DNA of 64,000 nucleotides, taken from contig NZ_CP022600.1 of NCBI RefSeq assembly GCF_002952215.1, forward strand, positions 1,984,001 through 2,048,000. Reading direction: 5' to 3'. A model generated the notes under the pieces. It made no database searches. It saw only the letters and a list, made by a program, of their open reading frames with translations, and had not been told where the DNA came from. Origin of the DNA: Porphyrobacter sp. HT-58-2. GTDB taxonomy: Bacteria > Pseudomonadota > Alphaproteobacteria > Sphingomonadales > Sphingomonadaceae. A program made the translations under genes and the position numbers. Below are positions 18,454 to 46,184 of this stretch, piece by piece (within the stretch, counting starts at the first letter, position 1; every line of letters begins with the position of its first letter).

Positions 18454-18538
18454 TGTCCCCCGTCAGCACCAATGGCACAGATTTGAGGTTGTGATTTAAG
18501 GAGGGTTGGGGCTTCGTCGTAGTGACGAAGGAACGAAG

Positions 18539-19905: not shown

Positions 19906-19980
19906 CATCAACCCCCAGACGAGGCCCGCTCTCCGCTAATCTACGCCGCGAGTTGCGCCAAATGTTCTGACGACGGACAG

Positions 19981-20329: not shown

Positions 20330-20472
20330 GGCCGATTTTGCCCGCTCCGGGTCGCTTCCCGACCGGCAGGATTTCTTTGGCCGGTGCAAGCCGGCCCTAC
20401 CGCTCTCGTAATCGCGCATCAGCCCTGCATATGGCCGCAGTTGGGTGGATCGCGGATATCAAGCCGCCCCGC

Positions 20473-25808: not shown

Positions 25809-25978
25809 GGTGTCAATCCTTGGAATGTTTTCCAGTCAGAGAGGGCACTGGGCGCTTCGGAAAACGTCGCAAAATCGAGCTCTTTGACGGTTGCTCTCAT
25901 AATATCGGGTCGCAAGCTGAATGCATGGTCAGAACGAATTGGCCTGTAGAATTGCCGGCGAATATGTCTTTTGCAGTA

Positions 25979-27109: not shown

Positions 27110-28329
27110 GGCAGGAACCTCACCCTTCCCGACAAAGTGATGCGCCGCATGACCCCGTCGTATTGGTATAGAAATACTCGCGTTTCACGCGGAGAATCGC
27201 GATAGGTTGTCAGAGTAGTGCTCTCGGTAGTGCTGTTCTGAACAAAAGCATTCGAATTTGAGTTCGGCATCTGGTCCAGATAAAACTTGAAGGCGCGATA
27301 ACTGAACTTGTGATCGCGCGCCGGGATCAACTCTGCTTCGTTAAGATTGGTCTGCACCTGAATGGCAAAGCGGGCGCCGGGGGTGTTCATGCATTGCTGG
27401 TCTAGCGCAAAGCGTCGGATGCCTTGGTTGGCATCAACAACTGGCCCGTTACTCTGGCCTCCAACTCGTGCGGGGCTGGATCGAGGTCTGTCGAAGACCC
27501 GATTTTTTGCGCCTGCCATCGGCGGAAGGGGACGGCTGCTGCTAGCCGTTTCGCAGTAGGCATAGATGCCATAAGTGCCGTAGATCTCGGCAGCCGTGCC
27601 CTGTCCCTCTGTAAACATGTTCGGCACGTTGATCATGAAGTCTATCTGACGCAGATCGATCTCGACACTGCGCGGCACGAAATCGGCGGGGTAATCCCTG
27701 AGCTTCGGAAACTTGCGTACCAGCGGGTTCACGGCGGCGGATGCGCTTGGCGTTGGTGTCGGAGTTGGCGCCGGGGTGGGCGTTACCCTCACGGTGCCGG
27801 TCGCGGTGTTGGATGAGCCTTGCTGGTTCGATGTCCGCTGGCTGCCGGTCACCGTTGTCACGCTTGAGAAGCCATTGATCCACCCGCGATACTTGGCGCT
27901 TGCCCCGCTAACGAAGGCAGAGCGGTTGGCAGGCAGACGGAAATTGCGGATCGGAGGCGCTGCGGCGGCCGTGCGGTTCCCGGTCCATTTGCGCGCCGCC
28001 ACACCTGCATCGAACCGCGGCAGCGCTTCGTTCTCCCAGCTGTAGGCCCCGGCGAAGGTGCCGTTGGCGCTCAGCTTCAACTCGGCATAGCCGCTGCGAC
28101 CATCGGCGTTGCGGAACACTGCGCGCAGCCGACCCGTCGAACGATCAATGATGCCTTCGATGGTGCCGTCACCATAATCACCATAAACATGGTCATCATC
28201 CTCGATCAGCCGGACCTGACCGAACGTGGTGCTCCAGGCCCCCTGCCACTGCTGGGCCGCAACGGGCGCGGCGCTGACGGCAAAGGCCACGCAGACGATG
28301 CTTGCAGCTGACTGGAAATTGCTAGGCAT
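27106..28329 (-). CDS. Secreted protein, same N-terminal domain (paralogue 3)
   Basis: 407 residues. Signal peptide SAASIVCVAFAVSAAPVAAQ, then the shared domain WQGAWSTTFGQVRLIEDDDH with VYGDYGDGTIEGIIDRSTGR. A Pro/Thr-rich linker (TPTPAPTPTPTPSASAAVN) precedes the C-terminal domain KLRDYPADFVPRSVEIDLRQ and EIYGTYGIYAYCETASS, shared with the second paralogue. Its function is unknown. Confidence 0.75.
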   Translation of the reverse strand: MPSNFQSAASIVCVAFAVSAAPVAAQQWQGAWSTTFGQVRLIEDDDHVYGDYGDGTIEGIIDRSTGRLRAVFRNADGRSGYAELKLSANGTFAGAYSWENEALPRFDAGVAARKWTGNRTAAAAPPIRNFRLPANRSAFVSGASAKYRGWINGFSSVTTVTGSQRTSNQQGSSNTATGTVRVTPTPAPTPTPTPSASAAVNPLVRKFPKLRDYPADFVPRSVEIDLRQIDFMINVPNMFTEGQGTAAEIYGTYGIYAYCETASSSRPLPPMAGAKNRVFDRPRSSPARVGGQSNGPVVDANQGIRRFALDQQCMNTPGARFAIQVQTNLNEAELIPARDHKFSYRAFKFYLDQMPNSNSNAFVQNSTTESTTLTTYRDSPRETRVFLYQYDGVMRRITLSGRVRFLP

Positions 28330-29561: not shown

Positions 29562-31811
29562 CTAGTTCATGGCGATCTTCTTCAACATGGCGCTATATGC
29601 CGCGATGGCCTCAGGGTGGTTCTCGGCAGACCGCTCACTCCTAATGATGTCTTCGAGCATTTGGGCTGCCCGGCGTTTCTCGCCCTGTCCCGCCACAGCC
29701 ATAGCAAGTTGCGCGTTGATTTCGCGCAGCTGAAAGTGATCTGGACCCCACAGCCGCTCGCCCAGCCTTACCGCAGCGCCTGCTGCCGCTTCAGCCTCGG
29801 CGAACTGTTCAAGGGCAATCAGCGTTTGCGCACTCTCGAGGCCTATCGCTACCTCGAGATATTCGATACCGGGCTCATCGCCGAGAGCCGTGCGGGCCGC
29901 GCCCAAATGCTTCAGGGAGCCCTGCCAGTCCTCCTCCAGCTGGGCGATTTCGGAAAGCTGCAACCAGAATACCGCCTCCGATGCGCTCGCAGGTCGTTGC
30001 TCGGAATCGTAGAAATCGAGGGCTTGTCCGACCAGCATCTTGCTCTTCGTAAAGTCCCTGAGTTCAAGCGCACTGTCGGCCGCATAGGCAATAAGGGTCA
30101 GATTGCCCGCGATCTCCCCATAATTCTCGCGGTCGATGGTCTGCAGGTGATCGTCAGCAAGATCGAGGCACAGACGCGAGTCATCCTTTGATCGGGTGAT
30201 CTTTGCCCGAACGCATCTGTTCAATGCGCGGTCAAAGGTGCGCAACTCCGGATCCGACGAGAAAAAGCCATCAAGCCGATCCGACAAGGCGATTACCTCC
30301 GACGGTTCGACATAGCCGCTCGAAAGGTGCAGCAGGCTCAGGAGCGTGAAGGCAGAGGCATAGCTCAGTTCCGAGTTGAGCGCAGCAAGCTTCCGACCAA
30401 TACGGCTTGCAGCTTCGTCCTGCCCGGCATCCCCATAGACCTCGGCGAGAAAAACGTAGATCTCGAGGGCCTTTTGAGGATCGCTCGCCTCAACCTCCTC
30501 CGCCGACTGCTCGAGCGCATGCATGGAGCCAAAGATTTGCTGGCCTACTGACGAGTTCGGATCAACCGAGGCAATAAATCTATTGAAGCCAGCGTTGAAG
30601 GTCTCATAGAGTTCAATGCTGTCTGCACCCTTCAGTTTGGCAATCCGGTTCGCCTCCGCCTCCTCGCTGGCCCGCAGCGCAAACACGCTCACCCCGACAA
30701 GACCCGCGACAAGCGCCGCCGCGGCAAGTGCGCCCATCGCCGAGGCAAGCCTGTTCCGCGCGATCAGCTTCCCAAGCCGCGCCAAAGGTGCAACGGGGCG
30801 GGCGGAAACGACGAAGCCGTCCAGAAAACGCGTAAAATCCTCCCCCAGTGCATCGACCGAGGCATAGCGGTTGGCTGGGTCAAAGGCTGTGGCCCGGGCG
30901 ATGATTGCCGCAAGATCGGGATTGCCCAGCGCCTGTGCAGCAATCACCACCGATCCATCGGCCTGACGTTCAGGCAGTCGCCCGACCAGCAGCAGGTGCG
31001 CCAGCATACCAACCTGAAAAATGTCGGTCGCAACGCTCACAGCTTCGCCTTCGAGCTGTTCGGGCGCGGCTGTCACCAGGGTCAGCGCCCGCCCTTGCCG
31101 GTGCGTGTCTGCCATGGCCGCTTCCGGGATCAGTGCCGCTATCCCGAAGTCGATCAGCCGCAACTGGCCATCGCTGTTGACCAGCACATTGGCGCTCTTG
31201 ATATCGAGGTGCAGCACCAGCCGGGCATGGGCATGGGCGAGCGCATCGCAAAGGTCGACGAGCAGCCTTACCCGCGTCCTGGGATCACACCCACGACCAG
31301 CGCACCAGTCTGCGATCGGAGCGCCTTCGACGAATTCGACGACCATGAAAGGCCGGCCCGCCGTGTCTTCGCCGCCATCGATGATGCGGGCAATGTTGGG
31401 GTGATCGAGCCGGGCCAGCCGCTGCCGCTCGTCCCTGAAGCGGTCCATCACCATCGCAGCCGGGCTGGCGACCAGCTTCATGGCCGCAATCTGGTCATAG
31501 ACCCCGTCATCGCGCCGGACGAGCCAGACCTGCCCCATCCCGCCAGACCCGATGCGCTCAGCCAGCTTCCACGCCCCGACCCGCTCAGGCGGTGGCCCGC
31601 CCGGGCCTTCGCCGGGATCGGGATCGGCCTCGGGCGCACGGGTCGACATGAAGCCGGTCAGATCGCCGGTCACCGCAAGGTGCGCCGACAGCGCCATCGC
31701 TCCGGCAGGATCGGTATCGGCGAGAGAGGCCAGATCAGGCGAGGGATCACCCCGGCCGCTGCTGTCTTCCGCCGCGATTGCCCTGACAACAGCACCCCAG
31801 TCGACCTTCAT
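29562..31811 (-). CDS. Ser/Thr protein kinase with TM and TPR-like region
   Basis: 749 residues. Kinase domain at about residues 80-345: glycine loop IGSGGMGQVW, Lys in IAAMKLVAS, catalytic LHLDIKSANVLV (HLD in place of HRD, Asp kept), and LIDFGIA. A transmembrane helix follows (about 365-385, SAMGALAAAALVAGLVGVSV), then about 350 residues of helical repeats typical of TPR-type STPKs. Such kinases often sit next to ECF sigma genes; none is here. The gene overlaps a possible 39-residue upstream ORF (ATGA). The secreted proteins downstream on the same strand may share its regulation, which is inference. Confidence 0.88.
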   Translation of the reverse strand: MKVDWGAVVRAIAAEDSSGRGDPSPDLASLADTDPAGAMALSAHLAVTGDLTGFMSTRAPEADPDPGEGPGGPPPERVGAWKLAERIGSGGMGQVWLVRRDDGVYDQIAAMKLVASPAAMVMDRFRDERQRLARLDHPNIARIIDGGEDTAGRPFMVVEFVEGAPIADWCAGRGCDPRTRVRLLVDLCDALAHAHARLVLHLDIKSANVLVNSDGQLRLIDFGIAALIPEAAMADTHRQGRALTLVTAAPEQLEGEAVSVATDIFQVGMLAHLLLVGRLPERQADGSVVIAAQALGNPDLAAIIARATAFDPANRYASVDALGEDFTRFLDGFVVSARPVAPLARLGKLIARNRLASAMGALAAAALVAGLVGVSVFALRASEEAEANRIAKLKGADSIELYETFNAGFNRFIASVDPNSSVGQQIFGSMHALEQSAEEVEASDPQKALEIYVFLAEVYGDAGQDEAASRIGRKLAALNSELSYASAFTLLSLLHLSSGYVEPSEVIALSDRLDGFFSSDPELRTFDRALNRCVRAKITRSKDDSRLCLDLADDHLQTIDRENYGEIAGNLTLIAYAADSALELRDFTKSKMLVGQALDFYDSEQRPASASEAVFWLQLSEIAQLEEDWQGSLKHLGAARTALGDEPGIEYLEVAIGLESAQTLIALEQFAEAEAAAGAAVRLGERLWGPDHFQLREINAQLAMAVAGQGEKRRAAQMLEDIIRSERSAENHPEAIAAYSAMLKKIAMN

Positions 31812-32252: not shown

Positions 32253-33240
32253 TCAGGACTTGGGCGACGGCGCAGCTTGGCGCGGTGATGCCTTGGGGAC
32301 AGCAGGCTTGCGGTCACGAGGCCCGGGCGCTGGCGCGTCGTCAAGGGCTAGCTTGCCTCCGCCGCCCACCCGGAACTGTGCGACCAACTCACCGAGGCAC
32401 TGGGCTTCTTTGGACAGGCTGTGGGTTGCAGCGGTGGCCTGTTCGACCATTGCGGCGTTCTGTTGAGGCATGTGGTCGATTGTACCGACCGCGATATTGA
32501 CCTGTTCAAGATTGCTCGCCTGCGCCGCGGCGGTTTCTGCTATGTCACTGACCTGGGTGGTGACCGCGCCGATCTGCATAACGATTTCAGCGAGCAGCGT
32601 GCCGGTCTCGCCAACCAAGCTCACGCCCTCGCCGACATGCGCGGTGGACTTGTCGATCAACACCTTGATGTCACGTGCGGCCTCGGCGCTGCGCTGGGCG
32701 AGCGCGCGCACCTCGCTGGCGACCACCGCAAAGCCCTTGCCGGCATCTTCCGCGCGTGCAGCTTCGACGCCTGCGTTGAGGGCGAGAAGGTTGGTCTGGA
32801 AAGCGATCCCGTCGATCACGTCGATGATCTGGGTGATTTCGCGCGCGGATTGCTCGATCGCGCCCATCGTTGCGACCGCCTTGCCGACCACTTCACCGCC
32901 ATCGGTGGCGCGCTGGTGGGTATGAGCAATGGCGTGCTTGGCCCCGGGGGCGTTCTCGGCGGCCTAGCGGGTGAGACCGACCGTGGTGCCTACCGAAGCG
33001 GCGGTTTCTTCAAGGCTGGCCGCCTGCTGTTCGTTGCGCAGGGCGGGGTCTTCGCTGGCAGCGCGGATTTCTTCAGATGACGTCCGCACGCCGCTTGCCG
33101 TGGCGCGCACGGCGCCGATCATCCCTTCGAGCCGCGCCACCGAGGTGTTAAAGGCCTCGGCCAGCCGCTCACGCTCGCGGGCGGCCAAATGAGCGAGCTG
33201 CGACGCATCCGCGGACGGCCATTTCTCCGGCGGCCCCTGA
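32253..33240 (-). pseudogene. Methyl-accepting chemotaxis protein remnant with amber stop
   Basis: The frame carries a cytoplasmic MCP signalling domain (IDVIDGIAFQTNLLALNAGV, EAARAEDAGKGFAVVASEVR, ALAQRSAEAARDIKVLI). It is interrupted by an in-frame TAG at 32964-32966, after ETAASVGTTVGLTR, where family members have Gln (CAG to TAG). The region upstream (SEEIRAASEDPALRNEQQAA) matches the MCP pattern in the same frame, but the sensor, membrane and HAMP parts are missing. The stop and missing 5' half make it a pseudogene unless amber is read through. Confidence 0.82.
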
Positions 33241-33809
33241 GCAGGGGGATATGAACGCGACCAAGATCGTCGGCGTGCACTTCGGATCGTCATTTGCACC
33301 AATACCCAGTGCACGTGCGTTCGGCCGCATGCGTTCGGCTATCGCTTCAGCGTCGGTGGGTGCGAGACCGCGGACCTGCGAGCAAACCGGGAAAAGAATT
33401 TCGCTATCGGCTGGTGCATGCGCGGTGGCCGTACAATTTGCTTGGTGAATTCGCGCAACTCTCGCCGACGTTCGCTCTCACTCAAAGCTGGGCAACTTGA
33501 ATGGCCCTCATGCGATCCTGGTTATGGCTCTCTGGGGCGCGGGAACCACGTCGAGCTCCAACAATCAGTTCTTTCGGGGCGTCAAGCGCGGCGCATTCGG
33601 CGGCGCCATCAACGCCCGCTACGGTGTCGACTTCGGGTTCAGCTTTTACATCCAAAACTCCGATCAGCGCGCATCATGTCAATGTGATCTCGACCGCGAC
33701 GCACGAGGCACCTTGCTGCGGGGCGATCAATCACGCTTTTGCGCTGTGCGCCAGTCTCGGACTTTGCTTTTGTCCCGGTCGTGCGAGTTTCCTGATCGCA
33801 GGCCGATGC
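33241..33809. other. Debris region with a coding-like fragment
   Basis: Apart from the fragment at 33449-33676, no gene is supported. The 3' end approaches the stop of the minus-strand secreted gene at 33810. Confidence 0.4.
33449..33676 (+). pseudogene. Coding-like fragment of unknown family
   Basis: A plus frame with protein-like sequence: HSKLGNLNGPHAILVMALWG, then SSNNQFFRGVKRGAFGGAIN, then ARYGVDFGFSFYIQNSDQ. It has no good start and is followed by an incoherent frame, so it is probably a gene remnant. No family was recognised. Confidence 0.3.
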
Positions 33810-35144
33810 CTATCGCAGCGGCTTACCGCTGATCGTCACCAAGTCAGCATCCTTGAGCGTGATCCCGACGCGCTGGGTTTCCGCGGCCGCCTTGGCGCCA
33901 TCGGGCGTCAGGTCGAAATCGAACCGCGTGCCGGGCTTGAGCTGCGCCAGCGCCGCCTTGTCGAAGGTGAAGGTGGTGCTGATCGCGGGGGTTGCCGCGC
34001 CGGTCACCGGCTTCAGGCCGGTCGCGGGCGAGAGCGTCGCCTGCACCGGCTTCAACGGCGCGGCCAGCTTGCTGAAGATGCGCGGTGTGACGCGGTAGCC
34101 GGGGCAGGAGCCTGCGCCGCTATTACTCATCGAGAGCCTTAACCCGCCCGGAACCGCTGTCACAGCGAACACCGGATCGCACGCGGGAGCGGCCGTTGCC
34201 GGAGCGGCGGCGATAGTGACCGGCACCGTCTGCGTGCGACCGGCAAAGCTGACGGTGACCGTGCCATTCGACGCTTGCGGCTGCACAGCGGCGACCAGTG
34301 CGGCCTCGGCCCGGAGCGGCGTGAACCTTGTGTCCCACCCGCCTGAAACTTCCGTTGGCCGGGCAGGGTTGGGAGACAGCCAGCGCCCGAGCGATTGCGA
34401 CGACATGGCGAACGTTACCGGCATAGCCGCGGTGCCGGGCAAAAGCGCGACCGGATGATCCGCCCGGAAATTCGCTGTCGTCCCGGCGGCAACCGGCGCG
34501 GTTGGCGCGATGACGCTGAAGGCCGGAAGCGGCGCGACATTGACCGTCAGCGGCAAGCCGCCCGCATAATCCAGTGCCAGCACCAGTTTGAGCCCGTGGC
34601 TGGCGACCCTGCCCGATGAGGTTGCGCGGATTGGAATGCGGAAACTGGCCGTATCGGTTCCGCTGCCCGAAAACCTGATGGCGCCCGCAAGGTGCGGCAT
34701 GGTCTGCGGGCGACCGGCGATTAGCTCGAACCCGTCGAGGATGTCGGCAAGCCGGTTGGATACCGCCAGATCGCCTGCACTTCCGCGGTCGGAGGCGACT
34801 GTCAGCAGCAGCGGCAGCGCGCAGTCGCGGGGAAGTGCGCTGTCGAACTGGACATCGATCCTCAGCCACCCGCGGGTTGCATCGCCGCCCGTCACCTCGG
34901 CCGCGCGGGTCTCGCGCAGGCCGCCCACCGGCGTCGGATCGGTGCCCGGCGCAACCGCATAGCGCAGGATGCGCGGCACCGGCCTCGTGTCGGATGTGTT
35001 GGCCGCCGTGAGCGTTCCCGTCACGCAGGAAAAGCGTGGTCCGGTTTGCGCCTGCACCGCAGCGGGATCGACCGCCCCCACGGCCAGGCCCGCCAGCAGC
35101 GTGGCAGCGAAAGCTTCGGGAAGGCGGTTTGCGGAAATGGTCAT
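33810..35144 (-). CDS. Secreted hypothetical protein, divergent to the secretin operon
   Basis: 444 residues from the ATG at 35144, with signal sequence PEAFAATLLAGLAVGAVDPA before the mature AQTGPRFSCVTGTL. The mature protein is beta-rich with several Ig-like stretches: ILRYAVAPGTDPTPVGG, GTTANFRADHPVALLPG, and a C-terminal segment PACDPVFAVTAVPGGLRLSM. It is divergent from the 35312 gene with a 167-bp shared promoter region, which suggests shared control. Its function is unknown; a surface or exported role is inferred from the signal and the neighbouring secretin. Confidence 0.7.
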   Translation of the reverse strand: MTISANRLPEAFAATLLAGLAVGAVDPAAVQAQTGPRFSCVTGTLTAANTSDTRPVPRILRYAVAPGTDPTPVGGLRETRAAEVTGGDATRGWLRIDVQFDSALPRDCALPLLLTVASDRGSAGDLAVSNRLADILDGFELIAGRPQTMPHLAGAIRFSGSGTDTASFRIPIRATSSGRVASHGLKLVLALDYAGGLPLTVNVAPLPAFSVIAPTAPVAAGTTANFRADHPVALLPGTAAMPVTFAMSSQSLGRWLSPNPARPTEVSGGWDTRFTPLRAEAALVAAVQPQASNGTVTVSFAGRTQTVPVTIAAAPATAAPACDPVFAVTAVPGGLRLSMSNSGAGSCPGYRVTPRIFSKLAAPLKPVQATLSPATGLKPVTGAATPAISTTFTFDKAALAQLKPGTRFDFDLTPDGAKAAAETQRVGITLKDADLVTISGKPLR

Positions 35145-35311
35145 GGCAGGCTCCTGTGCGGCGTCACGCCGGCCCTGTGATTGTAACGCCACGGTCGCCG
35201 GCATAGCTATCGCCCAGACAGACTAGCCCGCCGTCTAGCCCGTCCGGGCGATGGCGTTCGGCGCCGGGACCGGCACACTGGCGGGGACACACCAGACGTG
35301 AGGAACCGACC

Positions 35312-36727
35312 ATGACCAAGCTTCCCGCATCCCTGCGCGCCGGCAGTGCTCTGGCCATCGCGACCGCCGCGCTCGCCATGCCCGCCCCCGCGCTGGCGGG
35401 CTGGGACCGGATCGAAAAGGTCGGTTCGGGCAATGTCGTCGACCAGTGCGGCGCGCTGGCGCTGCGGGCCTCCGACAACCGGGCGCTTGTCGTGCCGACC
35501 GGATCGACCATCGAGATCGAGGTCCTGGGCCACGGCATTGACCTCGTGAAGAACGAGGAAATCGAGTTCAATGGCGGCGGCCACACCATTATCAGGCGCC
35601 ACGGCGGGGCACAGAACGTAACGCGCAAATGCGGGCCGATCGGCTCGGTCAAGCTGCGGCTCACGGTCAACCGCGCCAATCCCGAGGTCGGCGCTCCGGC
35701 CGAGCGCAACTACACCTTGCGGATCGGCGGCGACCGCATCCGCGTCACTGCGGTCCTGCCCGGCACGTTCCAGAATTTCGGCTGGGACCGCCAGAGCTTC
35801 TCCGGCGGGAGTGGTGGCGGGGCTGGCGGCGGCGGCGCGGTGGGGGCGACCGGACCGGTGGTGGTGGGGAGCGGCCAGAGCTGTGCGGGTTCGCAGAGCT
35901 GTGGCGGGGGCGGCACCACCGGGGTCGTCGTCCCGCCGCAGGGGCCGGCCGGCAGCAGCTCGAGGAGCGAGTTCAGCACCAATCTCAGGGGCTGCATCGC
36001 CGGGCGGGGCGGGGACGTCCGGATGGTCGGCAACCGGCTGGTGATCACACTGCCCGATGATCGCAATGCGGTGCGCGACTGCATCACCAACGCGACCTTT
36101 GCCCGGGTCGCGCAAGTCTATGACCGGCTTGATATTACCTCAACCACGGCCCCGCAGATCCCGGCGATCCGCTACTCTGTGCGCGGCGGCGAGGGGGCAC
36201 GCGCAAGGCCCGCCAGCGATCCGGCCGCGGCGCGGTTCTCGCTCGACAGCGACTTTGCGATGCGGATGGTGGGCGTGCAGGATTACCAGCTGGTGGCGAC
36301 CAACTTTGCCTCGCGACAGCTGACGCTCGATGTGCGGGTGCAGTCGACGGTGCCCTATGGCGTGACCCGGATCGCGCCCGCCGCCTTGCGGCTGGCACCG
36401 CCGACATCGATCCGGCCCGCCGGCGGCCTCAGCCGTAATTCGTCCGCCATGCCGCCCCGCCCAACGGTCGCGTTCGACATTGATCTGGCCCCCTCCGATG
36501 TCACCTCCCGCCCGCTCGAATGGAGCGTCGCCGGGGCCGGCGGGGCGTGTTTCACCGCAGCATCGGGCATCCTCAATCCGCCCGCGGGCGCGCAGCGTGT
36601 CTCGCTGATTCTCGAACGGGTCTCTGCAACCGCCTGCGCCGGACAGAACGTGGCGGTTTCGGTTGCGCCTCAAGGCCGGGGCAACATCGGACTCTATGCG
36701 GAATCGACCGCGATAACGCTCAACTGA
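35312..36727 (+). CDS. Secreted protein, first gene of the secretin operon
   Basis: 471 residues. Signal peptide GSALAIATAALAMPAPALAG. The N-terminal part (VVPTGSTIEIEVLGHGIDLV, IEFNGGGHTIIRRHGG) is beta-rich. A Gly/Ser-rich linker (SGGSGGGAGGGGAVGATG) separates it from a middle segment (RGCIAGRGGDVRMVGNRLVI) and a C-terminal domain of strands. The RBS GAGG precedes the ATG at 35312. Its function is unknown; the export signal and location suggest it works with the secretin. Confidence 0.72.
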   Translation: MTKLPASLRAGSALAIATAALAMPAPALAGWDRIEKVGSGNVVDQCGALALRASDNRALVVPTGSTIEIEVLGHGIDLVKNEEIEFNGGGHTIIRRHGGAQNVTRKCGPIGSVKLRLTVNRANPEVGAPAERNYTLRIGGDRIRVTAVLPGTFQNFGWDRQSFSGGSGGGAGGGGAVGATGPVVVGSGQSCAGSQSCGGGGTTGVVVPPQGPAGSSSRSEFSTNLRGCIAGRGGDVRMVGNRLVITLPDDRNAVRDCITNATFARVAQVYDRLDITSTTAPQIPAIRYSVRGGEGARARPASDPAAARFSLDSDFAMRMVGVQDYQLVATNFASRQLTLDVRVQSTVPYGVTRIAPAALRLAPPTSIRPAGGLSRNSSAMPPRPTVAFDIDLAPSDVTSRPLEWSVAGAGGACFTAASGILNPPAGAQRVSLILERVSATACAGQNVAVSVAPQGRGNIGLYAESTAITLN

Positions 36728-36766
36728 TCCGCCCATCCTTGCCCTGATAGACCTAGAGGCATTGTC

Positions 36767-37231
36767 GTGATCCCAGCCCGTCATCTGCCGCGCCATGCCG
36801 CCCTGCTGACCGCACTCTGCGCCCTGTGGCTCGTGCTTGGCGAGAGCGGGCCGCAGGCCACGGCAGCAGCCCAGACCGATGCCGCCAGCGAGGCCCGGGC
36901 GCTACAGGCCCGGGTCGATCAGCTGACGACAAGACTCGCCGCGCTCGAAACGCTGGTGTCCCGGCAGGGGCGGACCATGACCTTCGGGGGAACCACTGCC
37001 GAAACCGAGCTGGTCCTGCGCGCACGGCCCGACACGCAAAATCTGGCGCGGATCGGCAAGGCTGACGCGGTGCTCCAGTTCGATCGTATCACGCTGATGG
37101 GCAAGGAAATCACCATCGATGCCCGACGCGCGATCCGGCTGGACGCCCCGGCGATCACCCTCAGGGGCCACGTCGAAGCCAAGGACATCGTCGACGTGCC
37201 GCTCAAGGGCATCAAGGCGAGGGACAACTGA
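36767..37231 (+). CDS. Secreted/coiled protein in the secretin operon
   Basis: 154 residues starting with GTG at 36767. An N-terminal hydrophobic stretch (HAALLTALCALWLVLGESG) acts as a signal or anchor, followed by a coiled-coil heptad region (EARALQARVDQLTTRLAALE). Then come short beta repeats (AVLQFDRITLMGKEITIDAR, RAIRLDAPAITLRGHVEAKD) resembling a narrow parallel beta-helix. It may form an elongated exported structure. Superficial similarity to VgrG spikes is noted, but no VgrG domains are present. Confidence 0.65.
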   Translation: MIPARHLPRHAALLTALCALWLVLGESGPQATAAAQTDAASEARALQARVDQLTTRLAALETLVSRQGRTMTFGGTTAETELVLRARPDTQNLARIGKADAVLQFDRITLMGKEITIDARRAIRLDAPAITLRGHVEAKDIVDVPLKGIKARDN

Positions 37232-37233
37232 CC

Positions 37234-37533
37234 ATGCCCCGCCATGCTGCCTGCGTGATGCTGGCCAGTGTCCTGATGGCCGCGCCGCCGCCGCTGGCCG
37301 CTGCGCCGGAGAAGGCCGCGCCCGGTCATGCCCCGGTTTGCCGGGTGGCCAGCCATGACCGGCTGGTGGTGCGGAGCGGGCGGGATATCTGCGCGCCGAC
37401 CCTCAATCGCAGCGGCAAGCCCGCAGCGGCAGGCTTCATGCCGACCGAATGCCCGCGATCCAGCGAAACCTACACCATCGACGCAGCCGGCCCGGCAGAC
37501 CGTTGCCACATTCCGGCCCGTAAGGAGAAATGA
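37234..37533 (+). CDS. Small secreted protein in the secretin operon
   Basis: 99 residues. Signal peptide HAACVMLASVLMAAPPPLAA; the mature part has four Cys (PVCRV, DICAP, TECPR, DRCHI), so two disulphides are plausible. The ATG at 37234 follows the previous stop by 2 bp. The start of the secretin gene lies beside its stop. It is possibly a pilotin-like or substrate protein for the secretin, which is speculation. Confidence 0.62.
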   Translation: MPRHAACVMLASVLMAAPPPLAAAPEKAAPGHAPVCRVASHDRLVVRSGRDICAPTLNRSGKPAAAGFMPTECPRSSETYTIDAAGPADRCHIPARKEK

Positions 37534-37535
37534 CC

Positions 37536-39212
37536 ATGTCCTTGCCGCTCCGCCCCGCCCTCGCGGCGGCCTTGATGCTATCGCTCGCCATGCCGCAAGC
37601 CGCCGAGGCTGGCCGCCAGCGCAAGTCCGAGGCGCCGGGCGATCTGTCGCTGGTCGCCGCCGATACCCTGCTGGAACGCGGCGTTGCGGCCCTGCGCGCC
37701 AATGATCCGGCGGCGGCGGCGCAATCGCTGTCGGAACTCGCCTCGCGCCAGCCGCGCAACGGCACAGTGCAGGCGCTGCTCGGCCTGTCCTACCAGCTCG
37801 CCGCCGACCGCGACCCGCAGGCGCTTGATCTGGCGCTGGCAGGATATGACATAGCCATGCGGAGCGAGCCGGGGCTGTACTGGCCTGCGGCGATGGCTGG
37901 CCGCGCGGCCTTCGATCAGGGCAAGTATGACGAGGCGCTGTCTTTCTTCTCGCGCGCGGCGTTGCTGCGCCCGCGTGACGGTCCAACCCTGTCGGCGGTC
38001 GCGGCGGCGGCCTACATGAGCGGCGACACTGCCCTCGCAAGCCTCGCCGCAGGCCGCGCGGCGGCGCTCGATCCCGGAGCGAATGGCGAGAACCTGCGGC
38101 TGGCGGCGCTGGCGGCGGCGGCCAATGGCGAAGGCGATACCGCCCGCGCCCACCTCGCCGCGCTGACCGATGCCTTCCCCGCCGTGGCCAGCGACACCGC
38201 CCCGCGCGTCGAGGAACTGCTCCAGACCGCCCCTCTCGATACCTATACCGCCACCGGAGACGAGCTGCCGGCAACCGAGCTGGCGCCTGACCAGATCTCG
38301 CTCGATGTCGCCATCATCCTGTCGCAGAACACCCGGCGCGAACGCAGCGGGTTCAACCTGCTTGACGGGCTGAGCCTGCAATATGGCGCGGGCCGCAACA
38401 CCACCCGCACGATCTCGACCGACAACGGCATCCGCACCGGCAATAATTACCAGCGGGTGCTGACCGGCTCGATCACGGTTCCGCAGATCAACTACAACCT
38501 CAACCTGTTCAACCGTGGCGGGCAATTCTACTCGGTCGTCGCCCGCCCGCAGCTGACCGCCTATCGCGGCGAGCAGAGCGAGTTCTTCATCGGGCGCACG
38601 CTGAAGGTCGCGATTGGCGGGGTCAATGCGGCCATTCTCGAACAGATCGATGTCGGGGTAGATCTCAAGGTCACGCCGGTCGAGATCACCCCGACCGGCA
38701 CGCGGGTGCGGATCGAGGCCGGGCGCAGCTTCCTCACCTCCGATCCGGCGGGCACTTTTGCCGAGGCGCTCACCACCTTCCGCCAGCGCGTGGTCGCCAC
38801 CGCCGAAATCGGCTTCGGCGAGACGTTGCTGCTGTCGGGTCTCAACGAAGCGGTTGAGGACCGGACCTATTCCAAGACGCCGGGGCTGGGCGATATTCCG
38901 CTGATCGGCAACGCCTTCAACGAGCGCAACACCTTGCAGCGGCGCGATTCGGTGATGGTGCTGGTCACCCCGGCGCGGCCGATGGTCGCCCCGGGTCGTG
39001 CCTGGGCGCGCGGCGATGCGGCGGCCAGTCTTGCGCGGCTGTGGACCGAGGTTATCGATCCCGTCAGCAACGCCGATGCCACAACAGCGGCGCTCGGGCG
39101 GGTGCGGTTCTTCACCCGGATGCAGCGCGGGGATGTGTCCACCACCTTCCCGGCGGCCAAGCCCGCGGCGCAGCAGATGATCGACGATCTGGTCGTCCCG
39201 GGCAGAATCTAG
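37536..39212 (+). CDS. TPR-secretin (GspD/PilQ-type outer-membrane channel)
   Basis: 558 residues, starting at 37536 (AAGGAG eight bases upstream) rather than the overlapping ATG at 37530. After a signal peptide (PALAAALMLSLAMPQAAEA), the N-terminal half (about residues 40-210) is TPR-like (LLERGVAALRANDPAAAAQS, NGTVQALLGLSYQLAADRD, KYDEALSFFSRAALLRPRD). The C-terminal half is a secretin core (ISLDVAIILSQNTRRERSG, ILEQIDVGVDLKVTPV) ending in the signature GLGDIPLIGNAFNERNTLQR before DSVMVLVTP. The usual N0/N1/KH modules are absent and no ATPase, pilin or inner-membrane partner is adjacent. It is an orphan secretin, of unknown cargo. Confidence 0.85.
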   Translation: MSLPLRPALAAALMLSLAMPQAAEAGRQRKSEAPGDLSLVAADTLLERGVAALRANDPAAAAQSLSELASRQPRNGTVQALLGLSYQLAADRDPQALDLALAGYDIAMRSEPGLYWPAAMAGRAAFDQGKYDEALSFFSRAALLRPRDGPTLSAVAAAAYMSGDTALASLAAGRAAALDPGANGENLRLAALAAAANGEGDTARAHLAALTDAFPAVASDTAPRVEELLQTAPLDTYTATGDELPATELAPDQISLDVAIILSQNTRRERSGFNLLDGLSLQYGAGRNTTRTISTDNGIRTGNNYQRVLTGSITVPQINYNLNLFNRGGQFYSVVARPQLTAYRGEQSEFFIGRTLKVAIGGVNAAILEQIDVGVDLKVTPVEITPTGTRVRIEAGRSFLTSDPAGTFAEALTTFRQRVVATAEIGFGETLLLSGLNEAVEDRTYSKTPGLGDIPLIGNAFNERNTLQRRDSVMVLVTPARPMVAPGRAWARGDAAASLARLWTEVIDPVSNADATTAALGRVRFFTRMQRGDVSTTFPAAKPAAQQMIDDLVVPGRI

Positions 39213-40963
39213 TCTTTCGCCGCCGTGCGGGCCTGCGCCAGCGCTGCCAGCGCCGCCAGCACGGCCTGCTCCGGCAGCGGCTTGAGTAGCAGCGGACATC
39301 CGCTGGCGGCGACCTGCTTTTCGGTCGCCAGCGTTGCATCGCCGCTCATCACCAGCACTTGGGCTGCGGGGGCATGGCGGCGCACCAGCGCGACGACCTC
39401 GGCCCCGCTATCCTCGTGGTCAAGGTGCCAGTCGGTAATCACCGCCGCCGGACGCAGGCCCGTTTCCAGCGCGGCGGCGACCTCGCGCGAATTGGCGAAG
39501 CTGGCAACCTCGGCGCCGTGCTGGCGCAACAGCTGCGTCATCGCCTGCCGGGTATCGGCGCGGTCCTCGACCAGCAGCACGGCGAGCCCCGCCAGCGAGA
39601 GGCCTGTGGCGGTCTGCGATCCACGCGCCACCTCGGCTCCTCCAAGTTCCGCCGCCGGCAGATCGAGCACGAAGGCACTGCCCCCCGTCCAACGCGGTTC
39701 GAACGTCAGCCCGCCGTCCATCAGGTGCGCCATCTCGCGCGCAATCGCCAGCCCCAGCCCCGACCCATGCCCAAGCCGCCGCGAGCCCGCGCCCTGGGTA
39801 TAGGGTAGAAACAGCGCCTCGGCCTCGTCCGCCGCGATGCCCACGCCGTCATCGGCGACCATTATTGCGAGACGCTCCCCCCGCCGCCGCACCAGCACCC
39901 GCACCCGGGTGCCGCGCGAATGGAGCAGGGCATTGGTGACGAGATTGCGTAGGATGCGGGTCAGCAGCGCGGGATCGGCGCGCACCGCCGCCGTGCTGCG
40001 CGCGGCGCGCAGATCGATTCCTGCCCGCCGCGCCGCAGGAGCCAGTTCGAGCGCCAGCGCGTCAAGCAGACCGGCCAGCGCGACCGGCTGGCAATCGGCG
40101 AGCAGCGTGCCGCTTTCCAGCCTCAGATGTTCGGCCATGCCTTCGAGCATCACCATCGCCTCGGCCAGCCCGCGCTCCACCCCGTCGGCGGCGCGCGCAC
40201 GGCGCTGTTCGTCGCTGGTGCGCTGCAACTGGCTGAAGAACAGCACAGCCGCCTGCAGGGGCTGCCGCAGATCATGCGAGGCCGCCGCGATAAAGCGCGT
40301 GCGGACATCGCGCTCGGCCTCGGTCTCGGCCAGCGCTCGGGCGAGATCCTGCGAAATCGCCTCGGCGCGCAGGCCCTGCGTCACCGCCGAGCGGATCGCC
40401 TGCTTCAGCACGAACGCCGTCCCGATCATCAACCCGCCGAACGCCAGCAGGAAGATCGCCAGCGAAGTCGCATAGACTGTCTCGGAGTTGAAGAAGAACA
40501 GCGCCGCCGATCCGAACACCGCGATGACGCCGAAGATGATCGTGCCGATCGATTCTGCCGTGGCAATCACCTGTCCGCTGATCGCAGCCGAATAGAAGAT
40601 CACCATCAGCAATTGCAGCGGCTCGGAGGCATAGGGCAGCAGCACCCACACGCTCGAAGCAACCGCCAGATCGAACAGCACCGCCACCACCTTGCCCAGC
40701 GGCGACCAGAACCGCGCAATCTCGGCGGCATCGGGTTTGCGGCGATAGAAGGCCAGCGGCACCACGATCATGATCGCGGTTACCAGTGCGGTCGATCCGG
40801 TCCAGAGCCACAGGTCGCGTGGCGGCATGAGCGGCGCGAACAGCGAATGGACATAGGCCAGCGTCCCGCCCACCAGCAGCGCAAGCAAGCCGGCAATGCC
40901 GAATTCGATGCGGGATTCGGTCGCCCGCACTTCCTCGTGGATCAGGTCGCGCTGGCCGCTCAA
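39209..40963 (-). CDS. Hybrid sensor histidine kinase with receiver domain
   Basis: 584 residues. Six or so hydrophobic segments in the first 190 residues form a membrane sensor. Then HisKA with RFIAAASHDLRQPLQAAVLF (phospho-His), an HATPase with NLVTNALLHSRGTRV and VADDGVGIA, and GHGSGLGLAIAREMAHL. A C-terminal receiver has the phospho-Asp in AAVITDWHLDHEDSG and Lys in LLLKPLPE. Its stop overlaps the secretin stop on the other strand (shared CTAG at 39209-39212). Together with the regulator upstream it probably controls the secretin operon, by proximity. Confidence 0.88.
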   Translation of the reverse strand: MSGQRDLIHEEVRATESRIEFGIAGLLALLVGGTLAYVHSLFAPLMPPRDLWLWTGSTALVTAIMIVVPLAFYRRKPDAAEIARFWSPLGKVVAVLFDLAVASSVWVLLPYASEPLQLLMVIFYSAAISGQVIATAESIGTIIFGVIAVFGSAALFFFNSETVYATSLAIFLLAFGGLMIGTAFVLKQAIRSAVTQGLRAEAISQDLARALAETEAERDVRTRFIAAASHDLRQPLQAAVLFFSQLQRTSDEQRRARAADGVERGLAEAMVMLEGMAEHLRLESGTLLADCQPVALAGLLDALALELAPAARRAGIDLRAARSTAAVRADPALLTRILRNLVTNALLHSRGTRVRVLVRRRGERLAIMVADDGVGIAADEAEALFLPYTQGAGSRRLGHGSGLGLAIAREMAHLMDGGLTFEPRWTGGSAFVLDLPAAELGGAEVARGSQTATGLSLAGLAVLLVEDRADTRQAMTQLLRQHGAEVASFANSREVAAALETGLRPAAVITDWHLDHEDSGAEVVALVRRHAPAAQVLVMSGDATLATEKQVAASGCPLLLKPLPEQAVLAALAALAQARTAAKD

Positions 40964-41604
40964 ATCACGCCCTGACGCCGTGCGATATCGACAGCCTGGG
41001 TGCGATTGCTGGCGCCGAGGAGTTGAAGGACCTGCGCCACATGCGCCTTCACCGTGTAGGGCGAGATGCCGAGGGCGCGCGCGATCTGCTTGTTCTCCGC
41101 TCCGCCTGCGAGCATCCGCAGGACCTCGATCTGCCGTTCGGTCAAGTCGCGCGCGGGCCCCGGGTAGAGGCTTTCGCGCGGACGGAGTTCGCCCGCAGGC
41201 CCCGCCAGCGCCATCATGCGGACCGGGTCGGGCAGGTAGCGCCCGCCCGCCAGCACCAGTCGCAGCGCAGCTTCGATCACTTCCGGGTTGGAAGATTTTG
41301 GAATGAAGCCGCGCACATCCAGCTCCAGCGCAAGCCGCAGATGCGCCGCATCCTCGCTGCCGGAGAACACCACGATAAGCGTGTCCGGCAAGGCCGCGCG
41401 CGCGGCGCGCAGGTTGGCGAAGGGATCCTCGTCAGGAATGTGCAGATCGAGCAGCATCAAGTCGAACGGCCCCGCCTCGCGCGCCAGTTCGAGCGCCCGG
41501 GCGCAACAATCCGTAATCTCGACCGTCGCCCGGAACATCGTCTCGATCGTCATCCCCATCGCTGCCGCGACGATCGGATGATCATCACAAATAATTACCC
41601 GCAT
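40960..41604 (-). CDS. LuxR-family response regulator
   Basis: 214 residues. Receiver domain: VIICDDHPIVAAAMG, phospho-Asp in FDLMLLDLHIPDEDP, Lys in RGFIPKSS. C-terminal LuxR HTH: LTERQIEVLRMLAGGAENKQ, then IARALGISPYTVKAHV. The start at 41604 skips a Cys-rich upstream extension. It overlaps the kinase gene by 4 bp, so they form a NarL/FixJ-type two-component pair. Confidence 0.9.
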   Translation of the reverse strand: MRVIICDDHPIVAAAMGMTIETMFRATVEITDCCARALELAREAGPFDLMLLDLHIPDEDPFANLRAARAALPDTLIVVFSGSEDAAHLRLALELDVRGFIPKSSNPEVIEAALRLVLAGGRYLPDPVRMMALAGPAGELRPRESLYPGPARDLTERQIEVLRMLAGGAENKQIARALGISPYTVKAHVAQVLQLLGASNRTQAVDIARRQGVI

Positions 41605-42110
41605 ACAGCAGCAGACCGCCCCCAAACCCCTGTCTCACAGGGTATTTGCTGCACGCAGGAAAGGCAACTCGCGGATTTACGAAGACCTGTGCGATCATTG
41701 CTTCTGCAAACATCCGGCCTCGGGCGTGCGCCCAGCCCAGGTCGCGCGTCTGCATGCATGTGCGGGCGGGTTTCAATAAACCCCGGACCGCACGATCAAT
41801 TGGTATCAGCATCCTTACAATTCGTACTTCGCTGTCACCGTGCTGATGACCGCTTGGGGGTCGATTCCGGAGCGGCAGCAGTTTTTCGGAAGAGGGGCGA
41901 AGCCGCCATACAGCTTTCGGGATCGAGCCGCGGCCCGGCTCATAGCCGGGAATGGGTGGAAAGGTGAACGGCGGGTTTGCTGTCGAGCTTCGTCATCCTC
42001 GGCGCGCTGACCGGTGCGGCCTTGCTGTGGCATGGCAGAGGGCATCTGCGCGTTTATCCAATTGAAACTGCTGATTGGTACTGCTCAATCCTCAGCTTGC
42101 GAGGGTTGCC
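41605..42110. other. Gap with repeat copy 7
   Basis: It contains the upstream region of the response regulator and one full dispersed repeat. A frame at about 41977-42131 reads LLSSFVILGALTGAALLWHG, a membrane-helix-like stretch running into the next gene; it has no clear start and may be a remnant. Confidence 0.4.
41858..41960 (+). repeat. Dispersed intergenic repeat, copy 7 (full length)
   Basis: It begins GGGTCGATTCCGGAGCGGC, carries AGGGGCGAAGCCGCCATAC, GGGATCGAGCCGCGGCCCGG and ends CATAGCCGGGAATGGGTGGA. Exactly 103 bp. Confidence 0.82.
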
Positions 42111-42536: not shown

Positions 42537-45500
42537 ATGCTGTTCAATCGCATTATGCGCGCTTTCATCAGTGCGGCCGAACAGGCGCCGCAAGTGCAGG
42601 AAATCCTGTCGGAAGTCGCGGCAATGACAGAAGCACGCCGCGATCGGTTGCGCCGTGCCGGTGCAGCCGAGGCCGCAGCGCCCGTAGCGGAAGGCCATCC
42701 GCCCTCCTCCCGAGGGGGCAAGGCAACTGTCCCCGCCTTCAGCCCGGGCGCATGGGATGCCACGGAACCGATGGACGCCCGCGCCAAACGCCTGCTGCCG
42801 AGCGTGCTCGGCTTGGAGAACAAGGCGATGCGGCAATATCTGCTCAACCGCGCAAAGGATGGTTCCGCATGGGACGCCGCGCGTGGCGAGCGCGATCAGG
42901 CCGCGCTCGACCATGCGCTGGCGAGCGGCGATCCGATCGACATAGCGCTGGATCTCTACGCCCGTCTGCCAGCACGCCGCGGCCTGCCCAATCCCGAAGG
43001 CGAATTGCGGCGGCTGAATGCGGCCTTCGACGGGGCGCATCATGCGGCGTGGAAGAAGGTCGGCTACGAGCCCGCCTTCAGCGATGCGCAGATGCGCAAG
43101 GCGCTCACCGCGATGGGGGCGCTGATCGCGAGCGGCGTGAACGATTACATGTCGCCGTTCGATTACCACTACCGCACCATCGTCAAGGCAGCGGCCGCCG
43201 ATGGCTGGCCCAAGTGGAAGCCTGCCTTGATCGCGGCCCTGTCCGCCGGGTTCGGAGGCGACACGGTGCGCTTCAGCGATGTGGTGAAGCTGACCGAAAA
43301 GCTGATCGAGGAAACCCCGCTCGACGCAGCGGACATCCCCGAACTGGTGGCGGCGGCCGAGGAAGGCGCGCGGCTCGATGCAATCCGGGCGGCCATCGCA
43401 GCGGAGCTCCACCCCGCCGCCGCCGATGCGCTGTTCGCGCTGCTCGATGGCGGAACGGCGATGCTCCACTCCAAGACCGCCGAGACCGAAGCCCTGCGCG
43501 CGCTTTCGCCGCAGGAGCGCGGCACGATCTTCGTCCAGCTACTTGACGTGCTGACCGACCCCGCAAGGTTCGGCTTTACCCATTGGGGGCAGCTCCAAAG
43601 GGAGAAAGGCGTTTATCGCTTCGGCGTTGTCTATCAGGAGATACCGTTCCAGCTGGGCGGGCTGTTCCTTGGGCTTACCCGCCGTGCCATCGACCTGCCC
43701 CATGCAGATGCCACGCTGGCGCGGATGTTCGACCTGCTGCCCAAGCTGGGAACGCTGCGCGACCGCAAGTTCCTCGGCCTGTTTCTCGATACTGCCAAAC
43801 AGCACCCGACAGGCCAGACTGCCGCCGCCTTGCTCGCCTTTATCCGCGATCCGGGCGAGCATCATCCGTTCAGGGAATTCCGGGTCGAGATCGAGGATGC
43901 GATACGCTTCCTGCCCAACGGCAAACAGACGGCGGGGGCCGCTGCGGCGAGCCCGCTTGCAGGCCTGCCGCCGCTGCCGCTGCCTGAACTCGATTTCGAC
44001 GCCTACAGTTGCTCCTACGGGCTGCGCGAGCATTTCGAGAACCTGTTCGACGCCCGGCTTTACGATGAGGCGCACCGCGATCTGATCGGACGTTTGGCCA
44101 CACTGCAAGCCGCGCTTCAGCACCATCACGACAGCGGCGGCGACCGTTCCCCTGCGACACTGGCGAAAGTGGTTGGTGCCAACGGCTTTCCCGGCGTGCG
44201 GTTCAACGACTGGTTCCTGGCCGACACCGCCCGGCTGGGCGCGCAGCTGGAACAACGCCTGAAGGTTTATGCTCCCTTCGTTACCGCCTATCCCGAACAG
44301 GCGCGGCAACTCAGCACACTCACGTCGACCATCCGGGGGGAGAGCAAGCCGAGCAAGGCGTGGCTGAAGGAAGGCCATGCCGCGCTGGAGGGCGTGCCGC
44401 CCGAACTGATCGCGCAGATGCTCGACCGGTTGATGGAGCGCCCGATCGACACGATTGTCGACATGCGCGGGGATGCGGCCCTGCGCACGCTGGTGCTGTT
44501 GGCGAGCGGACTTGACCCTGCGATGTTCGGCCCGCGGCTGGCGACGTTCGCGCTCCGGCATTGCTACATCAAGGAACGCGGCCACCACGGGACCGCCGGC
44601 TTCCGTGACGAGCGGATGGGCAATGCCTGCATTATCGCCCTGAGCGAAATGCCCGCAGGCGCAGGCATCCGCTATATGGCGCGGGTCCAGAACCGCGTGA
44701 ACTATCCGAAGATCAAGGGCTTTATCGACAAGCGCTTCGACGCTGCCGCCAAGGCCGCCAAGATAACCCGCGGCGAGCTGGACGAGCTGATCGTGCCGGT
44801 TCACGGGCTGGACGCCGAAGGAACGCTGACCCGACCGATCGGAGACGGGAAGGGCATCGTGCGGCTGAACGGCAGCAAGGTCGAGGTGACGTGGATTGCC
44901 GCAAGTGGCCAGGCCGTGAAGTCGGCCTCTGCCGGGATGAAGGCCGATGCCGCCGCGCTCAAGGCATTCCGCGCACAGGTGACCGAGATCAAGGCCGACA
45001 TCACCGTGCAGACCGCGAGGTTGCAGCGGCTCTATCTCGAAAACCGCGAATGGCCGCTCGACCAGTGGCGGCGCCGCTATGCCGAACACCCGCTGCTGGG
45101 CGCGTTGGCGCAGCGGCTGGTGTGGTGGGTTGGCGTAGGCGAAGGCGAAGGCGACAAGGTCGCGGTGATACCCGAGGCGCGCGGCACGGTGCTTCGCGGA
45201 CTCGACGACAAGCCCATCACCCCCAACCCCGCCGCTCGCGTTCGCCTGTGGCACCCGATCGAAGCCTCGCTCCCCGAGATCGAGGCATGGCGCGACCGGC
45301 TGGAGCAAGCGGGACTCCAGCAGCCCTTCCCGCAGGTCTGGCGCGAGGTCTATCTGCTCACCGATGCCGAGCGAACGACGCGGACCTACACCAACCGTTG
45401 GTCGGGCCATATCCTACGCCAGCACCAGGCGATGGAACTGGCGCGGGCGAACGGCTGGAGCGCGACCCACCAGACCGGGTTCGACAGTTCGCGCAGTACG

Positions 45501-46184
45501 CCCTGGCAGCTCCCCATCCCGGCTCACGGACTCGTCGCCTCCTACTGGCTCGAAGGCTTGCCCGGTGCCGACTTCTCACCGGGCGGGGCGTTTACCTACA
45601 TCACCACCGACCGGATGCTGTTCCACCGCGCTCGCGGCGGCAACGGGCGCGACGCGAACCGTGCCTACGAAGGCGAATCCATCGCGCTCGAGACGCTGCC
45701 GCCGATTGTGTTCTCCGAGGTGATGCGCTGCGGCGACCTGTTTACCGCAATCGCCTCGATCGGGAACGATCCCGAATGGATCGACCGCGGCGCCGATGCC
45801 GAGGTGACGAACGATTGGCGTCGCCGGACCTATGTCTACTGGCACGACGCGAACAGCGCCCCGCTCGAACAATCAGGACAGAGCCGCAGGGCGATCCTTG
45901 CAAGGATCATCCCACGCCTAAGAATTGCCGACCGCCTGTCGCTCGACGACCGGTTCCTCCACGTGCGCGGCAAGCTCAATGCCTATTCGATCCACCTCGG
46001 CGCGGGCGGAGCGTTCTGCGGGTCGCGGCATCTGTGCATTGTGCCGTCGGGTGAGGGGCCGACAGGCAAGATCTGGCTACCTTTCGAAGGCGACCGCATC
46101 CTTTCGCTGATCCTGTCGAAGGCCGTGTTGTTGGCTGCCGACGACAAGATCACCGATCCGGTCATCCTGGCGCAAATTCGCTGA
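42537..46184 (+). CDS. DUF4132-family large protein (MolR/YehI-like)
   Basis: 1,215 residues, soluble, without signal peptide. The C-terminal third carries the DUF4132 pattern: PLDQWRRRYAEHPLLGALAQ, RVRLWHPIEASLPEIEAWRD, LEQAGLQQPFPQVWREVYLL and YTNRWSGHILRQHQAMELAR. The middle contains RAVDFALPHADAT-like helical repeats and YMARVQNRVNYPKIKGFIDK. Relatives include E. coli MolR/YehI, whose biochemical role is unsettled. No WGR domain was seen here. Cotranscribed with the small gene at 42111. Confidence 0.82.
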   Translation: MLFNRIMRAFISAAEQAPQVQEILSEVAAMTEARRDRLRRAGAAEAAAPVAEGHPPSSRGGKATVPAFSPGAWDATEPMDARAKRLLPSVLGLENKAMRQYLLNRAKDGSAWDAARGERDQAALDHALASGDPIDIALDLYARLPARRGLPNPEGELRRLNAAFDGAHHAAWKKVGYEPAFSDAQMRKALTAMGALIASGVNDYMSPFDYHYRTIVKAAAADGWPKWKPALIAALSAGFGGDTVRFSDVVKLTEKLIEETPLDAADIPELVAAAEEGARLDAIRAAIAAELHPAAADALFALLDGGTAMLHSKTAETEALRALSPQERGTIFVQLLDVLTDPARFGFTHWGQLQREKGVYRFGVVYQEIPFQLGGLFLGLTRRAIDLPHADATLARMFDLLPKLGTLRDRKFLGLFLDTAKQHPTGQTAAALLAFIRDPGEHHPFREFRVEIEDAIRFLPNGKQTAGAAAASPLAGLPPLPLPELDFDAYSCSYGLREHFENLFDARLYDEAHRDLIGRLATLQAALQHHHDSGGDRSPATLAKVVGANGFPGVRFNDWFLADTARLGAQLEQRLKVYAPFVTAYPEQARQLSTLTSTIRGESKPSKAWLKEGHAALEGVPPELIAQMLDRLMERPIDTIVDMRGDAALRTLVLLASGLDPAMFGPRLATFALRHCYIKERGHHGTAGFRDERMGNACIIALSEMPAGAGIRYMARVQNRVNYPKIKGFIDKRFDAAAKAAKITRGELDELIVPVHGLDAEGTLTRPIGDGKGIVRLNGSKVEVTWIAASGQAVKSASAGMKADAAALKAFRAQVTEIKADITVQTARLQRLYLENREWPLDQWRRRYAEHPLLGALAQRLVWWVGVGEGEGDKVAVIPEARGTVLRGLDDKPITPNPAARVRLWHPIEASLPEIEAWRDRLEQAGLQQPFPQVWREVYLLTDAERTTRTYTNRWSGHILRQHQAMELARANGWSATHQTGFDSSRSTPWQLPIPAHGLVASYWLEGLPGADFSPGGAFTYITTDRMLFHRARGGNGRDANRAYEGESIALETLPPIVFSEVMRCGDLFTAIASIGNDPEWIDRGADAEVTNDWRRRTYVYWHDANSAPLEQSGQSRRAILARIIPRLRIADRLSLDDRFLHVRGKLNAYSIHLGAGGAFCGSRHLCIVPSGEGPTGKIWLPFEGDRILSLILSKAVLLAADDKITDPVILAQIR

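Follow-up and report, generated by a model that had tools for sequence, protein, structure and literature searches.

The 64,000-nucleotide stretch of the Porphyrobacter sp. HT-58-2 genome analyzed here (hereafter the window; G000:C1:1984001-2048000, in a genome that consists of one contig of 3.28 Mb) contains a seven-gene unit that includes a gene for a TPR-secretin, a secretin in which, as predicted from the sequence and from a structural model, a solenoid of tetratricopeptide repeats (TPR) is joined straight to the secretin barrel and a conserved, family-specific tail stands at the end. The assignment to this family, the architecture and the linkage of the genes can be considered almost certain. 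Tentatively, and with a confidence that falls a little short of probable, we interpret the locus as a self-contained outer-membrane secretin channel together with the exported proteins that it serves, under the control of a two-component system. Secretins are familiar as the exit gates of large machines; if the interpretation is correct, a secretin can also act on its own as a small unit for export or display, and the TPR-secretins would provide a one-chain model for the way in which pilotins help secretin assembly.

Architecture and relationships of the TPR-secretin

The product of the secretin gene (37530-39212, plus strand; the start is perhaps at 37536) contains the secretin core (PF00263) at residues 335-481 (E 5.8e-21; 75.2 bits against a curated cut-off of 27.5) and a TPR_2 match (E 7.7e-7). 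The predicted layout comprises a signal peptide, five to six TPRs (residues 44-238), barrel strands (255-482) and a tail (about 486-560) that is conserved and specific to the TPR-secretin family. In the AlphaFold2 model, 11 long helices and one short helix over residues 44-238 are followed by the barrel strands, and the TPR region runs directly into the barrel with no folded domain in between. The original prediction of a secretin core fused to an N-terminal TPR region and devoid of N0/N1 modules is therefore borne out, with the reservation that, although none of the secretin N-domain models (N0/N1/N3) matched at E<=1 in the Pfam search, the HMMER filters drop most matches above approximately 0.1. 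The best barrel matches are PDB 9wfd by fold (E 2.4e-16, Foldseek) and PDB 8jvb by sequence (E 2.5e-11), and the SctC profile match is far under its cut-off (47.6 against 238 bits).

A periplasmic TPR region combined with an outer-membrane pore is also the general layout of PgaA, BcsC and AlgK/AlgE, and the TPR-secretin might export a polysaccharide in the same manner. The PgaA profile does match the protein, at E 0.09 only; however, the barrel is a secretin barrel and no glycosyltransferase or synthase family was detected in the 10 proteins scanned, which are encoded between 29.5 and 46.2 kb of the window, so that this function appears quite improbable.

The protein search yielded 166 homologues at E<=0.001 among 7996 candidates scored; the 120 that are listed show 47-97% identity and originate, where the organism is named, mostly from sphingomonads. 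A scan of a collection of species genomes matched 64 stretches, 30 of which encode a relative, the hosts including Erythrobacter, Novosphingobium, Sphingopyxis, Sphingomonas, Caulobacter, Asticcacaulis, Aquisalinus, Aestuariibacter and Burkholderiales-type metagenome-assembled genomes. The spread over Sphingomonadales, Caulobacterales, Burkholderiales and others is patchy: TPR-secretins were detected in 2 of the 114 genomes of the genus (E<=1e-40), in 5 of 347 genomes of the family (E<=1e-35; four candidates scored) and in 11 of 398 genomes of an even phylum sample (E<=1e-35), a count that may be low given that three candidates per genome were scored. The core profile separates the close family (340-426 bits) and the remote members (101-169 bits) from other secretins (at most 65 bits), which align to it only from position 55 or later; three remote TPR-secretins also align late, from position 49-50. 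In the secretin tree, from which L002, a copy of the window secretin, had been removed beforehand, 46 TPR-secretins (32 close and 14 remote, with a long-branch warning among the remote members) stand apart from 31 other secretins of relatives with a support of 100/100, the comparison set including the CpaC protein of the same genome and leaving out GspD, PilQ, SctC and pIV. By this sequence-based criterion, the TPR-secretins are a distinct clade apart from the secretins of the tight adherence (Tad, or Flp) type that are found in their relatives.

The patchy distribution, along with the location of one copy on an Asticcacaulis plasmid, would fit a gene left behind or carried by a phage or plasmid, for example that of a filamentous-phage export secretin. 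This origin is barely credible given that none of the 14 viral-contig stretches that were pattern-matched is a relative by tblastn, the sole match to a phage record covers 26% of the query and the core only, no full-length TPR-secretin was found in a complete phage genome, and the exported neighbors showed no clear phage family (PHROGs search with 7 exported proteins; best E 0.011).

Gene content of the locus and secretion machinery of the genome

The open reading frame (ORF) coordinates place all seven genes where they had originally been located. The divergent gene (33810-35204, minus strand; start perhaps near 35141) codes for an exported protein with no Pfam match and is separated by an intergenic region (35205-35311) from a run of four plus-strand genes that encode an exported 471-aa protein with tandem domains resembling immunoglobulin (Ig) or fibronectin type III (FnIII) folds (35312-36727; assigned from homologues, predicted structure and fold matches), an exported 154-aa protein with a probable coiled coil and then a beta-rich C-terminus (36767-37231), an exported 99-aa protein with four conserved Cys (37234-37533; homologues in other loci) and the TPR-secretin. 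The run is operon-like, with gaps of 39 and 2 bases and then a 4-base overlap, which becomes a 2-base gap between the four-Cys and secretin genes if the latter starts at 37536. Convergent to it, with a 4-base overlap of the secretin and kinase genes, are two minus-strand genes whose Pfam domains identify the predicted hybrid sensor kinase (39209-40963; HisKA, HATPase and receiver domains, six hydrophobic segments) and LuxR/NarL-type response regulator (40960-41625; start probably at 41604). All four flanking exported proteins have signal peptides as judged by eye, and a Pfam search with them gave nothing above cut-off, in agreement with their description as exported proteins of no recognizable family. 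For the 36767 product, the proposed coiled coil is probable; the beta-helix is doubtful, the match to PF18715 (E 0.015) being below its cut-off. A tRNA-SeC reported by ARAGORN at 33977-34053 was taken as false because it is located inside the 33810 gene.

Neither an ATPase gene (PF00437) nor an inner-membrane platform gene (PF00482) was found beside the TPR-secretin in the window, as had been predicted, whereas pilins and pseudopilins were not searched for. All matches to these two families are elsewhere in the genome: those to PF00437 represent one CpaF and one VirB11-like gene, the latter in a locus resembling a type IV secretion system (T4SS), and those to PF00482 are in the Tad locus, the names Tad and T4SS being assigned from neighboring genes. 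The barrel is most similar to those of the type II secretion system (T2SS), namely GspD and the T2SS-like secretin of Acidithiobacillus caldus (8jvb/9wfd). Nevertheless, membership in a T2SS was rejected given that, pseudopilins aside, the locus has no GspE-type ATPase or GspF platform, the protein lacks the N0-N3 domains of GspD, and the PF00437 and PF00482 genes of the genome belong to Tad and VirB-type loci.

The TPR-secretin could also be an alternative outer-membrane channel for the Tad (Flp) machine of the cell, borrowing its ATPase and platform. By its matches to PF00263, PF00437 and PF00482, the genome indeed has a Tad locus at 1427992-1434867 and, elsewhere, a CpaF; in Novosphingobium arvoryzae (L035), a seemingly full Tad locus comes to within about 5 kb of the TPR-secretin. 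However, both of these Tad loci have their own CpaC, the TPR-secretin model has no N-domain for docking, the 31 secretins of relatives fall outside the TPR-secretin clade, and 112 of the 114 genomes of the genus have no TPR-secretin match at the threshold used, all of which makes this relationship unlikely. Tad-type genes were found near a TPR-secretin in only 1 of the 42 loci searched (30 named loci, 11 others and the window), that of N. arvoryzae, which counts against strict orphan status in one species and gives no sign that the TPR-secretin is part of a Tad system. When nine Tad and T4SS proteins of the genome were compared with the window, only CpaC found a relative, the TPR-secretin itself. 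Membership in a Tad pilus was thus rejected on the strength of the missing CpaF/TadB/TadC genes at the window locus (pilins being outside the search) and the lack of grouping with CpaC (100/100), and the claim that the gene does not lie within a conventional T2SS, type IV pilus or Tad locus stands. In the window genome, some 173 kb separate the CpaF-type ATPase gene (G000:C1:1607639-1609210) from the Tad locus.

Exported partners and proposed mechanism

The neighbors of the TPR-secretin were counted by sequence search in the 30 named loci, with thresholds of E<=1e-100 for the kinase and E<=1e-30 for the regulator. The hybrid kinase and the four-Cys gene occur in the identical set of 13 loci, and 12 of these also carry the regulator, the exception (L042) being a contig of 3.7 kb. 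The N-terminal 'GHGID...CGxIGS' domain of the Ig-like protein recurs in 13 loci as well (split over two frames in L056). Within the genus, the Ig-like protein and the TPR-secretin are present in the identical 2 of 114 genomes; in the family sample, the Ig-like protein was found in the window genome and one other (G826) only, and three remote TPR-secretins of this sample are without it. By profile comparison, the 33810 protein is a distant relative of an exported protein encoded in three of the Asticcacaulis loci (L049, L052 and L056; hhalign probability 91, E 1e-6, 179 columns) and shows no family link to the 35312 protein (hhalign probability 0.4).

Neighboring genes were also predicted with a simple codon-bias script, in which errors are possible. 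Nine kinase-less loci (seven of Asticcacaulis and two of Sphingomonas, after a spurious-looking member in L058 was dropped) carry instead a protein with a helix-turn-helix and TPRs (HTH-TPR), encoded directly upstream of the secretin in Asticcacaulis and approximately 4-5 kb downstream in the two Sphingomonas loci; in the one such protein that was scanned, the TPRs are clear and the helix-turn-helix is under its cut-off. The kinase pair and the HTH-TPR protein are never encoded together, and eight loci have neither. In the seven Asticcacaulis loci (L046, L047, L048, L049, L052, L053 and L056), the HTH-TPR gene and a gene for a 200-aa exported-looking protein are located directly upstream of the secretin gene, in place of the kinase and four-Cys genes.

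In the model of the Ig-like protein, 253 of 471 residues have a predicted local distance difference test (pLDDT) value of at least 90, and the fold matches include cadherins, an RTX adhesin, RbmA and S-layer proteins; the Ig-like alignment, used to query solved structures, gave 0 matches at E<=5. The tandem Ig/FnIII-like architecture and the fold matches, the absence of an ATPase or platform gene nearby and the fast divergence of the partner proteins, as seen in exposed proteins, would agree with an outer-membrane ring that holds the Ig-like proteins at the cell surface, where they would form an adhesive coat or a scaffold, and that transports nothing through its gate. Given that the barrel core retains the secretin strands, which fits transport secretins, and that Ig-like folds are common and carry little functional information, we consider such a display platform rather doubtful.

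Under the preferred interpretation, a self-contained channel, a dozen or so copies of the TPR-secretin would assemble into a gated pore, as other secretins do. The 35312, 33810, 36767 and 37234 products would reach the periplasm by Sec; the Ig-like and divergent proteins would then pass through the channel or be held and displayed by it, and the coiled-coil and four-Cys proteins might be parts of the gate or adaptors. Release without an ATPase could be driven by binding or assembly outside the cell, as in curli. Curli export employs a motor-free pore, CsgG, with small periplasmic helpers (CsgE/F) and an adjacent LuxR-type regulator (CsgD), and all three features have counterparts here by analogy only: CsgG is not a secretin, and no CsgG/CsgE/CsgF family was detected among the 10 window proteins scanned.

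We infer further, by analogy, that pilotin and secretin are combined in one chain, because the fused TPR solenoid has a TadD-like length, a lipobox is present at the N-terminus of 26 of the 120 homologues listed (by regular expression), and the C-terminal tail is conserved. In the Tad system, RcpA depends for its assembly on TadD, a lipoprotein of five TPRs and eleven helices whose groove accommodates the RcpA C-terminal tail (PMC10499894). The Tad/Flp system shares with the window protein a barrel of similar size in RcpA/CpaC (PDB 8odn, Foldseek TMt 0.50), a TPR helper and a C-terminal tail after the barrel; unlike RcpA/CpaC and TadD, the window protein has TPR region and barrel in one chain, lacks a VirB9-like N-domain, has no Tad motor or platform gene at its locus and belongs to a separate clade. 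The pilotins of type IV pili, PilF/PilW, likewise consist of a TPR solenoid, although they are separate lipoproteins and many unrelated TPR proteins score equally well. The TPR region may thus do the job of such lipoproteins (PilF/PilW, TadD) in outer-membrane targeting and assembly, possibly gripping the tail of its own or of a neighboring copy, and may also form a periplasmic docking ring that replaces N0/N1.

Several observations weigh against a self-contained export channel with an inbuilt pilotin. The window TPR-secretin itself has no lipobox by the same regular expression. To our knowledge, all secretins described so far work with an inner-membrane partner or motor, and the TPR-secretin would have to function without one. 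The coiled-coil gene is found in 4 of the 30 loci (L035, L044, L048 and L055; 15-29% identity) and the divergent 33810 gene, by sequence search, in 1 (L035, E 3e-74), so that neither is a core part; 17 of the 30 loci have neither the kinase nor the four-Cys gene at the thresholds used, and distant TPR-secretins have quite different exported neighbors, which indicates that the cargo is not fixed. The original claim of conservation together with the neighbors accordingly holds for several of them, across orders, and in part only. As for the undescribed channel or export system that had been proposed, its anatomy, the orphan TPR-secretin, the exported partners and the co-conserved two-component pair are retained; the export or display of the co-encoded proteins we infer from linkage alone.

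A broader and clearly more speculative possibility is that the TPR-secretins constitute an undescribed, widespread secretion system of Pseudomonadota, with secretin and pilotin in one chain and no ATPase or platform, in which one type of channel has been repeatedly coupled to different exported sets (Ig-like tandem proteins, tectonin propellers, Cys-rich proteins) and regulators (the kinase/regulator pair or the HTH-TPR protein). In the open-access literature (subscription papers were not covered), no description of a similar TPR-fused or orphan bacterial secretin was found, and the database entry name of the closest secretin structure led to no paper either.

Other exported proteins were noticed at related loci. 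Erythrobacter tepidarius (L034:9603-10004) has no separate coiled-coil gene, and the beginning of the coiled-coil protein is apparently fused to the four-Cys domain. An exported protein with an HDxCC motif, similar to that of phospholipases A2, is encoded near the TPR-secretin in L040 (8710-9672) and in L060-L063, with no Pfam match for the one tested. Four closely similar small exported proteins are encoded in tandem next to a remote TPR-secretin (L103:11580-15591). A regular expression for Cys hairpins gave 45 matches in the 118,268 residues encoded no more than 4 kb from the secretins versus 10 in 110,779 residues farther away; the counts were given no weight because the pattern was drawn from examples and many of the near matches belong to one family.

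Putative control region and flanking genes

The kinase/regulator pair might switch the divergent operons via an imperfect 38-bp palindrome (35212-35249, read by eye) in the intergenic region. The same block is located upstream in L034, L035 and L044, and the consensus built from these and the window occurs, with at most 1 mismatch, in five places among the 30 named loci, L083 and the window: the four source sites and L037, which alone is independent of the consensus. All five sites are upstream of the operon start in loci with the kinase pair. The palindrome is a candidate operator only, since the other nine kinase-bearing loci have no match at this stringency. Taken by itself, the direct repeat cannot be distinguished from chance (its 2 matches were equaled in 9 of 100 shuffles), and scans for sigma-70 promoters and terminators gave no more than chance.

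A defense role was rejected, as a PADLOC scan of the four exported proteins, the secretin, the hybrid kinase and the DUF4132 protein encoded at 42537-46184 found no defense family. Of 41 genomes sampled from the genus, 1 encodes the latter protein (1215 aa) at E<=1e-100, so that this flank looks accessory too, and an empty-site test there is uninformative for the same reason. On the other side, the gene at 29562-31811 encodes a Ser/Thr kinase with TPRs, whose kinase domain also matches PD-T4-6 defense kinases; kinases that cluster with it are encoded in L050, L059 and L063. Two adjacent ORFs at 32253-33314, the larger with a methyl-accepting chemotaxis protein (MCP) signaling domain and the smaller, by eye, another piece, perhaps represent a broken or frameshifted chemotaxis gene. 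Farther out, a tandem array of three paralogous genes for exported-looking proteins (491, 376 and 407 aa) occupies 24333-28329, and transposase-like genes, identified by eye, are located on both sides of the region (15736-20419 and 50920-52155).

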